64,000 bases of DNA from Candidatus Korarchaeum sp. GTDB lineage: Archaea > Korarchaeota > Korarchaeia > Korarchaeales > Korarchaeaceae. Position 1 is the stretch's first letter; each line of letters starts with the position of its first letter. A program made the translations under genes and the position numbers. The notes below the pieces were generated by a model that made no database searches, had not been told where the DNA came from, and was given only the letters and a program-made list of their open reading frames with translations. Shown here piece after piece: positions 2,815 to 55,592 of this stretch. Location of the stretch: assembly GCA_020833055.1 (NCBI GenBank), contig JAJHQZ010000003.1:62001-126000 (forward strand), written 5' to 3'.

Positions 2815-3918
2815 ATGCCATTAGAAGATGAGCTCTCCCTCGAGTCCCCTGAGGAAGCGTTCATCAGGATGAGTAAAGATATCCTGAGCTCCCTCAATAT
2901 CGAGAGGAGCAAGTACAAGCTGAAGTGGGAGGAGATCCCTGAGGGGTCTCATGAGAGGATAGCGGCTGTGGACGGGGGGAGCGGCATACTCTTCTTGAAC
3001 CAAGGTCAGGTGATGTTCTTGACATCCTCCTCCCTCTTCCAGAAAGACGATGCCATTAGGAGAGCTAGGAAATATCACATGGGCGTTCTAGATGCTTTCG
3101 CGCACACTGAGAGGGTTTCTATATGCAGGAAGACTATGGAGATAAAGATGGCCCTTAGAACAATAGAGTCACTGAATCCGGATCTCCTCCTACTTGATGG
3201 ATCTCTTAAAGCATTCGTAGATGGAGATATATGGGCTACACCATTCGGCTCGAGGTATCGAGTGAGTGAAGTGAGGAAGTTCCTCGATAAGTTCCTGATG
3301 GGGATAGAGGGGATGGGACTCGATCTAACGAGCGGGCTCATACCTCTAACTCAAAGTCGGGAGCATTCTAGAGATATAGATGCTATTATAGAGGAGGTCC
3401 TGAGGGAGAAGGGCGGTGAAACTCTGGGAAGGGATGAGTTTCTGAGAGCCAGAGCATATTTGGAAAGATATGAGTTCCTCTATTCATTGAACAAGCTCCT
3501 CAGTACGTCTAAAAAAATCGTAGCAATATCCAAGAGATCTGGGGGTAGTGCTTATTTCAGATCTAATGTCCCCGACATTGAGATAGTTAGGAGGTGCTGT
3601 GAGATGAAGCCCGGATTCCTGGAGCCCATTCCTATGGATCTGGACTTCCAGAATCACGGTATAGATAGCTCTTATTCGATTTACTTAACTTACGCGAGAT
3701 TGGAGAGAGGGGCCAATGTGCTGAGGGTAGAGGCACTCGGGGATAGTGACGACGTAAGTGAGATAATAGGATCCCTCGCGAGGAACTCCATAAAGGGATA
3801 TCCGTATCATCTGAGGATAGCCCACGAGATGGCGAAAGTAGGGAGGAAGCTGATCCACTTCTTAGTCAAGAACCTCCACTTAGATATCGTGAGCGGGAGG
3901 GAGGTACTTGGGGAGTGA
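2815..3918 (+). CDS. nurA: NurA 5'-3' nuclease
   Basis: NurA degrades DNA ends 5' to 3' together with the HerA translocase during homologous recombination. The catalytic acidic motifs are visible as IAAVDGGSG near the N-terminus and LLLDGSLKAF about 70 residues later. An open frame extends upstream to 2683 but overlaps the divergent gene and its promoter; the ATG at 2815 lies 26 nt after the TATA element, and ATG 2800 is an alternative. About 367 residues, normal for the family. First gene of the nurA-herA-mre11-rad50 operon; it overlaps herA by 11 nt. Confidence 0.88.
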   Translation: MPLEDELSLESPEEAFIRMSKDILSSLNIERSKYKLKWEEIPEGSHERIAAVDGGSGILFLNQGQVMFLTSSSLFQKDDAIRRARKYHMGVLDAFAHTERVSICRKTMEIKMALRTIESLNPDLLLLDGSLKAFVDGDIWATPFGSRYRVSEVRKFLDKFLMGIEGMGLDLTSGLIPLTQSREHSRDIDAIIEEVLREKGGETLGRDEFLRARAYLERYEFLYSLNKLLSTSKKIVAISKRSGGSAYFRSNVPDIEIVRRCCEMKPGFLEPIPMDLDFQNHGIDSSYSIYLTYARLERGANVLRVEALGDSDDVSEIIGSLARNSIKGYPYHLRIAHEMAKVGRKLIHFLVKNLHLDIVSGREVLGE

Positions 3919-5500
3919 CTCCTTAGGTAAGGTCGCCCCGGGCACCACCCCCCTCTCGGTCCAGATGGTAGCTTACGAGGGCGTGATCCCGAGGGTCGGG
4001 GAGTACGTCATACTGGAAGATGGGGAAGTCAGAGTGCTCGGTATGATAACCGATGTCGTGATGGGAGCCTCTGAACTAGAGAGAGAGGACTTGCTCCAAG
4101 CTAATTATTACGATAAGATCCTCAAGTTGATTGAGAGGCCATCTAATTGGATAAAAGCATCTATAAAGACGATAGGGGTCCTAGATGGGAAGAAGATCTC
4201 TGGAACCCCTAAGGTCCCAATATCGCCTGCAGCGGATGTTAAGAGGGCCCCTACTGATGTCTTGACTGAGATATTCAAACCGAACGATGGCGATGGGATA
4301 AGGATAGGTAAGTTGATGACTAGGGATGATGTAGATGTCTACTTAGATCCCGATGAGATACTATCAAGGCATCTAGCTATCCTAGCGGTCACTGGTGCCG
4401 GGAAGTCGAATACAGTCGCTGTGATACTCGAGGAGATCCTGAGGCTCGGGGGTGTAGCTCTACTCTTCGATATACACTCCGAATATTCTAACATGTCTCT
4501 GGATTGTGAGGGATGCTATGTTGAGACGATACAACCTGAGATAGATCCATTGACACTCAGCACCGATGAAATAGCTAAATTAATAGGAATATCCTACGAA
4601 TCTGCCGCGAAGATATATATATTCCTTAAAAGAGCTCATAATAATGCGAAAAACCTCTTGATGAGGGAGGAGTTAGGGGATTACATCAAGAGGGCCGGAA
4701 TAGATGGCGACCCTCAGGATCTACTGGCTGGTATACACGCTATAGTGAAACTATCTGTAGATGAGGAAGGCGGATCCGATGATAAGAACCTGCTGAGGTA
4801 CGGGAGGAAGGATAGGGAGAGTGTATTGAGCCTCTTAGCCAGGCTGGAGCACGTGAGGGAGAGATATTCTAGGGTCTTAGTCCCTAGGGCTGGTGAGATA
4901 GTAGATCACTTGAATTACAGAAAGCTCGTTGTCGTTGATCTGGGTCAATTAGATACGGAGCTGACGGATATAGTCGTAGGTAAGACTCTCATAACTCTAC
5001 TGGAGAGAGCTAAAAAGAAGAGGATGGGATCCGATGTCTGGATACCTATTCCAGTGTTCTCAGTCATAGAAGAAGCGCATATATTAGTCCCCTCTTCGAT
5101 GAATACGTACACTAACTACGCTGCCTCGCAAATAGCGAGAGAGGGGAGGAAGTTCGGGGTCGGTCTCTGCTTAGTCAGTCAGAGGCCTAAGGGAATAAAC
5201 ACTGATATACTCTCGCAAATGGTCAATAAGATAATATTGAGGGTGATAGAACCTGAGGATCAAGCCTACATAAGGAGAGCTACGGAGTTCCTAAGCGAGG
5301 ATATGGTGAAGTACCTCCCGTCCTTAGACATAGGGGAAGCGGTAGTAGTAGGTCCCATGCTCAAGATACCAGCTCTCATAAAGATCAGGTTATCTAGAGC
5401 CAAGAGGGGAGGTGAGAGCTTGAAAGCTAGGGAGCTATGGAAGATGGGGAGTGAGAAGAGGGACTTCAAGGATGATTATTACTCGGCTATAGGTGATTGA
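3908..5500 (+). CDS. herA: HerA DNA translocase / bipolar helicase
   Basis: A 530-residue FtsK-HerA superfamily ATPase. The N-terminal HAS barrel (GEYVILEDGEVRVLGMI) precedes Walker A LAVTGAGKSNTVAV near residue 160 and Walker B FSVIEEAHILVPSS near 385, then the REGRKFGVGLCLVSQRPKGI sensor region. Hexameric HerA pumps DNA into NurA at broken ends. The start is the TTG at 3908 inside the end of nurA, preceded by GGGAGG at 3895-3900 and needed to retain the N-terminal strand of the HAS domain; the next ATG (3965) would cut it. Overlaps the upstream nurA stop and abuts mre11. Confidence 0.93.
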   Translation: MGSDSLGKVAPGTTPLSVQMVAYEGVIPRVGEYVILEDGEVRVLGMITDVVMGASELEREDLLQANYYDKILKLIERPSNWIKASIKTIGVLDGKKISGTPKVPISPAADVKRAPTDVLTEIFKPNDGDGIRIGKLMTRDDVDVYLDPDEILSRHLAILAVTGAGKSNTVAVILEEILRLGGVALLFDIHSEYSNMSLDCEGCYVETIQPEIDPLTLSTDEIAKLIGISYESAAKIYIFLKRAHNNAKNLLMREELGDYIKRAGIDGDPQDLLAGIHAIVKLSVDEEGGSDDKNLLRYGRKDRESVLSLLARLEHVRERYSRVLVPRAGEIVDHLNYRKLVVVDLGQLDTELTDIVVGKTLITLLERAKKKRMGSDVWIPIPVFSVIEEAHILVPSSMNTYTNYAASQIAREGRKFGVGLCLVSQRPKGINTDILSQMVNKIILRVIEPEDQAYIRRATEFLSEDMVKYLPSLDIGEAVVVGPMLKIPALIKIRLSRAKRGGESLKARELWKMGSEKRDFKDDYYSAIGD

Positions 5501-52208: not shown

Positions 52209-52844
52209 ATGAAATTGCTAGCGATCTCCGATGTGCATTCATCATTCTCTAAGCTGAAGTCCTTACTAGAGAGGGAAAATTTTGATGTTATACTTATAGC
52301 TGGAGATATCTCTAATGGTGATATTAGTGATGTTAGGAAAATCCTGAAATTTGTTAAGGATTTCAGTGAGTATGTCTTCTTCGTCCCCGGTAACATGGAT
52401 CCCGCTCCCCTCCTCGAGATCAAAGAGCTCGAGGGATGCCTCAACTTACACCGTAATAAAACTTACCTAAGGGGGTACTCGATCGGCGGTGTGGGAGGAG
52501 GTCTCATCTCACCTTTCCTGACTAGAATCGAGTTCACTGATCATGAGATCTCGATTGCGCTTGAAGAACTCGGGTACGTCGATATCCTGCTGAGCCACAC
52601 CCCTCCATTCGATAGTGGGCTAGATAGAGTGAGATCGGGGCTTAGCGTCGGATCTAAATCCCTGAGGGATTACATAGAGAGGAGAGCTCCCCTACTCTGT
52701 ATCTGCGGTCACATACATGAGTCCAGGGGTATAGAGAGGATAGGGGTTACTTTCGCGATAAATCCAGGGCCTCTCTCCTGGGGGAATTATGCCATAATAG
52801 ATTTAGAGGGCAGGGAAGTGAGGCCGAAGCTCCTCAATCTCTAG
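52209..52844 (+). CDS. Calcineurin-like metallophosphoesterase
   Basis: 211 residues with the metal motifs ISDVHSS (D8, H10), IAGDISNGD, VPGNMDPAP, LSHTPPFD and CGHIHESRG. The phosphatase substrate cannot be deduced; it resembles small archaeal MJ0936/YfcE-like members. A CTAAATTCTTAAATC stretch centred near 52182 is 26 nt from the ATG. Followed by the ECF-like transporter gene. Confidence 0.87.
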   Translation: MKLLAISDVHSSFSKLKSLLERENFDVILIAGDISNGDISDVRKILKFVKDFSEYVFFVPGNMDPAPLLEIKELEGCLNLHRNKTYLRGYSIGGVGGGLISPFLTRIEFTDHEISIALEELGYVDILLSHTPPFDSGLDRVRSGLSVGSKSLRDYIERRAPLLCICGHIHESRGIERIGVTFAINPGPLSWGNYAIIDLEGREVRPKLLNL

Positions 52845-52846
52845 CC

Positions 52847-52860
52847 AAAATTTTAATTTT
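52847..52860 (+). promoter_or_regulatory. TATA box of the transporter-PanK operon
   Basis: AAAATTTTAATTTT is centred about 25 nt before ATG 52880, which supports that start. Confidence 0.5.
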
Positions 52861-52879
52861 GGTGACTCGAGCATTAGAG

Positions 52880-53413
52880 ATGGATCTGAGGGATATCGCT
52901 ATATCAGCTATAGGGGGAGCTCTGTACGCTCTCGTAGGTTACGTGAGCTGGTTAGGCCTCACTTTCTACGGCGTCAGGTTCTGGCCCTCTGTAGTGATAC
53001 CAGCGACTATATCATGCCTCTATGGAGCGAGCGTAGGCGGGTTATCCGCTGCGATAGGGATATTCATATCAGATATCGCCACTCATGGGAACGCGATCTT
53101 AAGCTTGACAGTTGGTGTTACATCTAACTTCTCATGCTTCTACATAATAGGGAAGCTCGCTGGGGGGAGTAAGTATAGCTTGAGGAGGTACCTATTAGCT
53201 TCTACTCTCGGGCTCACAGTAGGTCACTTGATAATAGGGGTGGGTCTCCTCCTCTGGAGCCAATATTTCCCCCTCCCATTTCAAGAGAGATTAACCCCGT
53301 TATCTATCGCTGCTGCACTCACGATATCATTCGTCACATTTGCTTGGGAGCTCCCATTCGCTCTCATACTAGTCCCTCCCATAGTGCATGCTGTCAAGAG
53401 GGCCGTGGGATGA
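52880..53413 (+). CDS. ECF-type transporter S component (probable pantothenate uptake)
   Basis: About 177 residues and five or six hydrophobic helices, beginning AISAIGGALYALVGYVSWLG, with small-residue motifs typical of ECF S components (vitamin-binding integral membrane subunits). Its stop overlaps the next gene's ATG (ATGA), so it is translationally coupled to a type II pantothenate kinase, which suggests pantothenate as cargo. The shared EcfA and EcfT subunits are not in the window. ATG 52880 is preferred over TTG 52859. Confidence 0.75.
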   Translation: MDLRDIAISAIGGALYALVGYVSWLGLTFYGVRFWPSVVIPATISCLYGASVGGLSAAIGIFISDIATHGNAILSLTVGVTSNFSCFYIIGKLAGGSKYSLRRYLLASTLGLTVGHLIIGVGLLLWSQYFPLPFQERLTPLSIAAALTISFVTFAWELPFALILVPPIVHAVKRAVG

Positions 53414-54267
53414 TGTTCATCATAGGGCTTGATATGGGAGGCACTACTACGAAGGGTGTCCTGCTATCTGAGGGAGGAGTTAGCTTGAAGACTCTAGTCG
53501 TCTCCTCGGATCCCTTAGCGGCAGCAGCTGGCACGATAGGGAAGATATTGACTCAAGGGGGGCTCGATATCGATGATATAGAGGCTATCGCTGCGAGCGG
53601 AGGGAGAGTGAGATCTCTCCCCAAGCGTATCCTCGGCCTCCCTCTCTTCGAAGTGGATGAGATAGAAGCTATAGGGAGGGGAGGCGCCTTCTTAGCGAGG
53701 ATGAGGGAGTGCGTAGTCGTAAGCGCTGGTACGGGGACTGCGATAGTTGAAGTCAGAGAGAGGAACTCTGGATACGATGTCAAGCATCTGGGAGGAACCG
53801 GTGTCGGAGGTGGGACCCTTTTAGGCTTAGGAAAGCTCTTACTCGGTAGATCATCTATAGAATCCCTCCTTGAACTAGCATCGAAGGGGAACTCTGAGAA
53901 CCTAGATCTCAAGGTAGGAGATATAGTGGGGGGTCCAGTGGGGAAGTTGGATGTCAACACCACTGCCTCAAACTTCGGGAGGTTAGTAGATGACGCTAAG
54001 CAGGAGGACATCGCTGCAGCCCTCGTTAATATGGTGGGGCAAGTGATCGGGGTCGTCTCAATCTTCGCAGCTAAGTCAGCGGGATTGGAAGATAAAATAG
54101 TCCTCGTCGGAGGATTGGCGAGTTATGAACTGATAGTTGAGGCAATAAGGAGACCTATAAAGCTCTTCGGTGGTAGTCTAATCGTCCCAGAGGATCCCCA
54201 ATACGCTACTGCATTAGGCGCATCTCTTAAGCTATTCTCCTCCCTCACATCCTTAGTGAGGGGTTAA
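53410..54267 (+). CDS. Type II pantothenate kinase-like ASKHA-fold kinase
   Basis: About 285 residues. The phosphate-1 motif IGLDMGGTTTKGVL, VVSAGTGTAIVEV and HLGGTGVGGGTLLGLGKLL match PanK type II (CoaW/Fumble); DPQYATALGAS ends the fold. It would phosphorylate pantothenate. Archaea usually use pantoate kinase instead, so this salvage enzyme is notable. Coupled with the upstream transporter (4-nt overlap) and with the Nudix-like gene (1-nt overlap). Confidence 0.8.
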   Translation: MMFIIGLDMGGTTTKGVLLSEGGVSLKTLVVSSDPLAAAAGTIGKILTQGGLDIDDIEAIAASGGRVRSLPKRILGLPLFEVDEIEAIGRGGAFLARMRECVVVSAGTGTAIVEVRERNSGYDVKHLGGTGVGGGTLLGLGKLLLGRSSIESLLELASKGNSENLDLKVGDIVGGPVGKLDVNTTASNFGRLVDDAKQEDIAAALVNMVGQVIGVVSIFAAKSAGLEDKIVLVGGLASYELIVEAIRRPIKLFGGSLIVPEDPQYATALGASLKLFSSLTSLVRG

Positions 54268-54968
54268 TGACTGTAAGCTATACAGTAGAACTGAGAGGGG
54301 CTGTCATCAAGGGAGATAGCTTGCTCTTGATAAGGGAGAAGGGTAAGAAGGATTGGTCTATCCCCGGAGACTTAGTTGAGCCTGGAAGGAGTTTCAGGGA
54401 TTCCTTAAGGGGGATTATATCGGATTCCACTGGCGTCCATGCCGAAGTCATTAGAGCTATCGATGTGAGCGATGAAGCGGATGCAGAGCATAGGATACGC
54501 ATAACTTACCTCTGCAAGCCGGTCTCAGGGAAACTGAGGCCCGGGAGGGGAGCTAAGGAAGTGAGGTGGGTCGAGCTCAGTAAGGCCACTGAACTACCTC
54601 TCTCAGGAGCTGCTAGAGAGGCAGTGAATATCCTGACCTCAAAGTTCGCACTCTTCATCAGGAATAGGGACTTGAGGAGGGTGATCATAGGGGTCCCTAG
54701 GGGGCACGTCCACAAAAGGGTAGTTATGGAGCTCTTTGATGGGATAATAGTACTTCATGAGGCGACTGTTGAGAACATCGTCAGGGCTTTCGTAGAGGTA
54801 GAGATGCACCCATCCAGGAGAGCGATAGTGCTAGAGGGGAGGGAGTTAGAGAGGAGGAAGGAAGGTTATTCAAAGTACCAACTCCTTGAGGTCGAGATGA
54901 GCGATGAGGAAGTCGAGAATATGATAACCGAGATCCTGGGCCTCGGTAGTGAGAGAAGTGAAGATTAA
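54267..54968 (+). CDS. Nudix-like protein with degenerate catalytic box and extra C-terminal domain
   Basis: 233 residues. Residues 1-125 follow the Nudix fold (GAVIKGDSLLLIREKGKKDWSIPGDLVEPG), but the box reads SFRDSLRGIISDSTGV, lacking the REUxEE glutamates, so hydrolysis is unlikely. Residues about 130-233 are an unidentified domain (RRVIIGVPRGHVHKRVVMEL). Translated together with the PanK-like gene (1-nt overlap), it may be a sensor or regulator of NAD or CoA metabolism. Function unknown. Confidence 0.72.
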   Translation: MTVSYTVELRGAVIKGDSLLLIREKGKKDWSIPGDLVEPGRSFRDSLRGIISDSTGVHAEVIRAIDVSDEADAEHRIRITYLCKPVSGKLRPGRGAKEVRWVELSKATELPLSGAAREAVNILTSKFALFIRNRDLRRVIIGVPRGHVHKRVVMELFDGIIVLHEATVENIVRAFVEVEMHPSRRAIVLEGRELERRKEGYSKYQLLEVEMSDEEVENMITEILGLGSERSED

Positions 54969-55047: not shown

Positions 55048-55061
55048 CCCGGGTGTTAGGG

Positions 55062-55592
55062 ATGATCAGGAGAGCCCTCGTCATAGGGAGGTTTCAACCC
55101 CTCCATCACGGTCATCTCTACTTGTTCAGGTACGCTCTATCTAGAGCTGAGGAGTTAGTGATAGGTATAGGGAGCTCTCAATTCTGCTGCCAGCCGAGGA
55201 ACCCCCTCTCAGCTGGGGAGAGGATGGAGCTCATAGTGAGGACGTTGAGGAGGGAGGGCTTCCCAATGGAGAGGATATTCATATCCTGCATACCAGATAC
55301 TCAATCCCCCGAGGAGAATTGGGGACTTATAGTCTTGGATAGAGTTCCCAGAGTAGATATCGCTTTCTCTAATGATCCTGAGACAGTGAGGTGCCTTAAG
55401 GAAGTTGGATTGCATGTAGAGAACGTCCCCTTCTTCAAGAGGGAGATTTATGAAGCCACTAAGATAAGGGAGCTCATATTGAAGGGAGATAGTTCTTGGA
55501 AGTCTTTAGTACCGGAATCTTCACTCGACTTCCTCATTGAAGTGGATTTTGAGGGTAGAGTGAGGAGGTCCGCGGGGAATAATTCACTCTGA
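55062..55592 (+). CDS. nadM: Nicotinamide-nucleotide adenylyltransferase
   Basis: About 176 residues. The nucleotidyltransferase motif VIGRFQPLHHGHLY is at the N-terminus, with EATKIRELILKG as the second ATP-binding motif. It makes NAD from NMN and ATP; archaeal NadM is this size. ATG 55062 gives the usual start; GTG 55053 is possible. The stop overlaps the convergent PIN ATPase gene by 9 nt. Confidence 0.94.
   Translation: MIRRALVIGRFQPLHHGHLYLFRYALSRAEELVIGIGSSQFCCQPRNPLSAGERMELIVRTLRREGFPMERIFISCIPDTQSPEENWGLIVLDRVPRVDIAFSNDPETVRCLKEVGLHVENVPFFKREIYEATKIRELILKGDSSWKSLVPESSLDFLIEVDFEGRVRRSAGNNSL

Follow-up and report, generated by a model that had tools for sequence, protein, structure and literature searches.

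The closest described counterpart of the locus analyzed here is the bacterial ‘pantetheine shunt', in which CoaBC is missing and pantetheine is phosphorylated directly, in cells that possess a pantothenate kinase (PanK)-family enzyme, CoaD and a dephospho-CoA kinase. The shunt has been demonstrated through the rescue of coaBC mutants, summarized for E. coli and S. enterica in PMC12570885, and proposed for ~91 gut strains devoid of CoaBC, the majority of which are Bifidobacterium and Clostridiales (PMC6593275); known B5 transporters are present in only 12% of these strains (PMC6593275). In B. subtilis, coaBC is dispensable given pantethine, via CoaA, a pantothenate kinase (PMC11487621). The use of pantetheine is limited to some PanK types, with type III unable to accept it, and in the Mycoplasmas, which have PanK, PPAT and DPCK without CoaBC, salvage has been suspected (PMC8721197). 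The bacterial systems for pantetheine uptake have been called poorly understood or unknown (2025 review PMC12570885; PMC6593275). Among the archaea, pantoate kinase (PoK) and phosphopantothenate synthetase (PPS) have been reported missing in Korarchaeota and Bathyarchaeota (PMC6650551). Within the partial coverage of our literature search, no paper on pantetheine salvage in archaea was found.

Compared with the bacterial shunt, the predicted korarchaeal system is archaeal and family-wide, and its type II kinase is encoded in a conserved operon together with a candidate transporter. The window, i.e. the whole stretch of 64,000 nucleotides that was analyzed (G000:C3:62001-126000), comes from a 1.39 Mb genome in 25 contigs with an estimated completeness of 99.5%. 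The operon, on the forward strand, encompasses the genes for an ECF transporter S component that is predicted to bind pantetheine (52880..53413), a type II pantothenate kinase-family (CoaW-like) protein, the predicted pantetheine kinase (53410..54267), and a Nudix-domain protein with a degenerate catalytic motif and a conserved C-terminal domain (54267..54968). In the open reading frame (ORF) calls, the S and kinase genes overlap by 4 nt (ATGA), and the kinase and Nudix genes by 1 nt (TAATG), so that the three-gene operon described in an earlier note on this DNA is confirmed by the ORFs and by the Pfam and NCBIfam matches. Among the 23 korarchaeial kinase loci, the S gene lies directly 5' of the kinase gene, within ~20 nt, in every case, and the Nudix gene directly 3' in 17. 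Given that the three ORFs are all conserved as proteins and that the S-kinase adjacency is invariant, this arrangement is not due to chance.

The ATG at 52880 is favored as the start of the S gene over the alternative TTG at 52859 since in most members of the genus the start of the S gene aligns with this position. A TATA-like element with a putative promoter function, TTTTAATTTT (52851..52860, forward strand), is located ~25 nt before this ATG, and the upstream alignment reveals an AT-rich element at the equivalent place 5' of the S gene across the genus. An 18-nt palindrome around the element (52845-52862) was considered as a conserved operator and rejected, being present in the window genome only; a scan for sigma-70 promoters, a model unsuited to archaea, and for terminators yielded matches at the chance level. 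The upstream neighbor on the same strand, a calcineurin-like metallophosphoesterase gene (52209..52844; PF14582/PF00149), probably lies outside the operon. The downstream neighbor, again on the forward strand, encodes the archaeal NMN adenylyltransferase NadM (55053..55592; NF002243, 150 bits, cut-off 127). The linkage of both neighbors to the operon is seen within the genus only. The NadM gene follows the Nudix gene after 84 nt, a position kept through most of the genus, and this proximity is reminiscent of the known bacterial NadM-Nudix fusions.

The first protein of the operon matches PF12822 with 59.3 bits (cut-off 30.7), and its AlphaFold model (pLDDT 91) contains six transmembrane helices in the ECF S fold, which together identify it as an ECF S component. 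Comparison of the model with the PDB yields S-component matches at a probability of 1.00. The korarchaeal protein shares the S fold and the separate EcfAT with the pantothenate transporters PanT (4rfs, 6zg3) and PanU but differs from PanT in being structurally nearer to ThiT (3rlb, the best match, TM 0.74, compared with 0.61 for PanT), in showing no detectable sequence match to any of the solved S components, PanT included, and in belonging to cells without CoaBC. With respect to the substrate, the fold search is uninformative. The earlier note expected EcfA and EcfT in the genome, and both were found: EcfT is present in all 26 genomes of the class, with four copies in the window genome, one of which adjoins a gene for a 490-aa fused double-ATPase EcfA.

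The kinase scores 251.5 bits with the NCBIfam model of type II pantothenate kinase (NF009842), above the equivalog cut-off of 234, and 87.1 bits with the Pfam Fumble family (PF03630); most of its relatives in the class score 198-246 bits with NF009842, many of them under the cut-off. Its alignment with type II PanK of S. aureus (4m7x) has an E-value of 2e-25. In common with S. aureus CoaW (4m7x/2ews) and the eukaryotic PANK1-3, it has the glycine-rich motifs and the catalytic Glu (E138 of human PANK3), which is retained as E84, is invariant in 18 sequences and aligns to the Glu of the S. aureus enzyme. It is nevertheless distant from CoaW (a profile match of ~92 bits), and the substrate-positioning Arg, R207 in human PANK3 (PMC8366970), is replaced by an invariant His126. 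The same His is found in the retrieved bacterial relatives, in a sample to which one search pattern that selected for this His contributed, and some of these bacteria encode CoaBC; His126 therefore does not discriminate between substrates and was rejected as a marker of pantetheine use. By descent, the kinase belongs to a sub-branch of the type II PanK family, and its activity is a prediction. With one substrate residue differing, ‘pantothenate kinase' is here a family name only.

The case for pantetheine comes from the content of the CoA pathway in the Korarchaeia. Type II PanK is encoded in 23 of the 26 class genomes, including all 15 that are near-complete, and the same 15 all encode CoaD (NF001985) and the archaeal dephospho-CoA kinase DPCK (PF04019). 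Neither CoaB (PF04127) nor CoaC (PF02441) was detected in any of the 14 near-complete family genomes; 14 of 14 control genomes were positive, and the full-length CoaBC model TIGR00521 concurs. The PF02441 matches in two genomes (G010 and G017), examined as potential CoaC, represent another flavoprotein, with TIGR00521 scores below 30 bits. PPS (PF02006) was not found in these genomes except in G023, and PoK (NF041122; positive control 4/4 archaea) not except in G023 and G026. Both are absent from all 14 near-complete family genomes, so that the archaeal PoK-PPS pathway is missing there; the window genome gives no match to either, as the earlier note had anticipated. The absence of CoaBC is not a failure of the search because CoaBC was found in members of the same phylum outside the family (G026, G027, G028 and G001). 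In gene terms, what remains is the complement of the pantetheine shunt, i.e. a PanK-family kinase, CoaD and DPCK in the absence of CoaB and CoaC. This complement is shared with the coaBC mutants and with the Apn variant of the shunt in gut bacteria (PMC6593275), here known from genes, except that the final step falls to the archaeal GTP-dependent DPCK (DUF359) rather than to CoaE. The Mycoplasmas have the same gap in the pathway but employ a type III kinase that is not known to accept pantetheine, and no linked transporter has been described for them.

With CoaB and CoaC, the route from phosphopantothenate to 4'-phosphopantetheine, undetectable, phosphopantothenate would be a dead end, and the loss of both these steps in the korarchaea makes it probable that pantetheine is imported and phosphorylated. 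The retention of the kinase, CoaD and DPCK without CoaBC implies that CoA would be made from pantetheine only. The best reading of the gene content is, accordingly with the bacterial precedent, an archaeal variant of the shunt, and we consider it likely that the operon serves the salvage of pantetheine, with pantetheine as the inferred substrate of both the transporter and the kinase. The S component, a candidate dedicated pantetheine importer, would dock with the shared EcfT and EcfA and bring in pantetheine, or a pantetheine disulfide that undergoes reduction within the cell; the kinase would convert pantetheine directly to 4'-phosphopantetheine; and CoaD and the GTP-dependent dephospho-CoA kinase, whose genes are located at other sites in the genome, would complete CoA. 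PoK, PPS and CoaBC, all missing from the window genome, would be bypassed, and a pantetheine kinase would close the gap in the pathway without recourse to any unrecognized enzyme. The earlier interpretation, namely, import of pantothenate, thus holds in that the locus is an uptake-and-kinase operon for a CoA precursor but not in the identity of the precursor, given that CoaB, CoaC and CoaBC are undetectable whereas CoaD and DPCK are kept.

Pantothenate salvage, in which pantothenate enters through the S component and is converted to 4'-phosphopantothenate by the kinase, and unrecognized enzymes replace CoaB and CoaC, nonetheless has several points in its favor: the top model match of the kinase is a pantothenate kinase family, pantothenate-specific ECF S proteins exist (PanT and PanU; PMC11487621), unrelated PPCS and PPCDC enzymes may stand in for CoaB and CoaC, and the S-kinase pair also occurs in cells with CoaBC, namely, in three genomes. 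Two of these, G028 and G001, are outside the family; in G001, CoaBC is split across two contig ends, with a composition matching the bin. The third, G023, belongs to the family and combines the pair with CoaBC, PoK and PPS genes in a compact cluster, the composition of which agrees with the bin. Contamination as the origin of this cluster is unsupported (tetranucleotide r of 0.92-0.94 with the bin). G026 and G027, likewise from outside the family, combine full CoaBC with a kinase gene that no S gene adjoins. The three genomes with both the pair and CoaBC suggest pantothenate as a possible ancestral substrate, and the simplest story is that Korarchaeaceae lost CoaBC and kept the pair, which may have switched substrate or have been able to use pantetheine all along. 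For the family as it is now, pantothenate salvage seems improbable: it requires two such unrecognized enzymes, not only in Korarchaeaceae but also in the remaining pair-bearing archaea without CoaBC, and in B. subtilis and E. coli it is pantethine rather than pantothenate that makes up for the loss of CoaBC (PMC11487621, PMC12570885).

The genes of the G023 cluster (L143, G023:C15:1035-3890), for CoaBC, pantoate kinase and PPS, overlap one another, and none of the near-complete relatives has them. An ORF beyond the cluster (3829-4422) resembles a membrane S component and has no family match.

When 84,980 species genomes were scanned, the S-kinase pair was also detected in metagenome-assembled genomes (MAGs) of Nitrososphaeria, Brockarchaeota-related groups and Bathyarchaeota. 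In the kinase tree, which contains near copies and long branches, the S-linked kinases are nearly all together, with 3 label changes compared with 25.6 in shuffles. Among 11 non-korarchaeal archaeal MAGs with the pair, of unassessed completeness, no CoaBC was found beyond one fragment of 20.9 bits; among the kinase-bearing genomes without this S gene, CoaBC is present in one Bacteroidales and one Binatia and was not found in one Clostridiaceae. In two bathyarchaeotal loci (L089 and L102), the S gene is separated by 7 nt from a gene that matches CoaD with 182-185 bits, an arrangement that ties the transporter to the step directly after 4'-phosphopantetheine.

This last linkage bears on a further alternative, according to which the kinase, a member of the ASKHA fold, acts outside CoA synthesis as a BadF/BcrAD-like or sugar kinase, the S component imports its substrate, and CoA is made from imported 4'-phosphopantetheine or CoA-level intermediates. 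The kinase does show weak similarity to BcrAD/BadF (51.6 bits) and to acyl-CoA dehydratase activases (58 bits), has His in place of the Arg of the human and S. aureus enzymes, and belongs to a family in which inactive type II PanKs exist (PMC8366970). The type II PanK equivalog, however, is by far the best match and exceeds its cut-off, the catalytic Glu is invariant, the S gene is linked to coaD in Bathyarchaeota, and phosphopantetheine uptake is not known in E. coli (PMC12570885), all of which render this scenario distinctly unlikely. That CoaBC is present but was missed, through assembly gaps (the window genome comprises 25 contigs and some class genomes are fragmented) or extreme divergence, is hardly credible because three models, with controls positive in 14 of 14, fail to detect it also in 12 further near-complete genomes and in G006, the closest single-contig relative of the window genome (1,590,757 bases, same genus).

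Returning to pantetheine salvage, the chances are about even for a broader proposal, in which the S component would found a family of dedicated ECF importers of pantetheine or its disulfides; Korarchaeaceae, Nitrososphaeria, the Brockarchaeota-related groups and Bathyarchaeota would have swapped CoaBC and the pantoate kinase route for obligate pantetheine uptake, and CoA half-molecules would be traded in hot anoxic communities.

The neighborhoods of the archaeal and bacterial relatives show additional features. In nine archaeal loci (L059, L061, L064, L066, L068 and L076-L079), a divergent gene beside the S gene encodes a regulator-like protein that combines an N-terminus of the AbrB/MazE type with a PhoU domain, a candidate regulator of the uptake of the CoA precursor. 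In two of these loci (L066 and L068), S-component genes are found on either side of the kinase gene. In Clostridia (L088, L094, L101, L112 and L118), a different ECF S gene of PF12822 lies beside the type II PanK gene, upstream or divergent, and is a possible bacterial counterpart of the archaeal pairing. The two bathyarchaeotal loci with the CoaD gene also contain a single ORF (L089:6935-7474 and L102:6906-7442) in which RNA polymerase subunit H (RPB5 C-terminal domain) follows a restriction-endonuclease-like domain (Mrr_cat, NA-iREase1), a layout that recalls eukaryotic RPB5.

The place of the third protein of the operon is less clear. It matches PF00293 (NUDIX) with 31.3 bits (cut-off 21.1), and its predicted model has the Nudix fold, but the Nudix box, GDLVEPGRSFRDSLRGIISDSTGV, departs from the intact GX5EX7REUXEEXGU of active hydrolases. 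The comparison of the window protein and its orthologues, L002, L004 and L005, with L006-L024 indicates that the box is degenerate in the window species and its nearest relatives, and intact in most of the genus. The C-terminal domain is strongly conserved, with the motifs RNRD, GVPxGHxHxR, HEATxEN, EMHP and YQL; across 14 orthologues, no Pfam family other than NUDIX was found, and this domain matches none. Of the earlier proposal for a Nudix-like third gene, the adjacency to the kinase and the Nudix domain stand, whereas membership in the CoA pathway is doubtful given the degenerate catalytic motif. The pantetheine model stands without this protein.

The lack of PoK and PPS in Korarchaeota was already known (PMC6650551), but the source of their CoA was not. 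The locus exposes a trap in annotation: the ‘pantothenate kinase' label does not mean that a cell is able to use pantothenate. It also offers candidate pantetheine uptake proteins, namely, the korarchaeal S component and the homologues of this protein that other archaea encode, to which the clostridial ECF S proteins encoded beside type II PanK can perhaps be added. For the korarchaea themselves, the gene set predicts an obligate requirement for pantetheine, which provides a hint for culturing, i.e. the supply of pantetheine or pantethine, beyond pantothenate alone.
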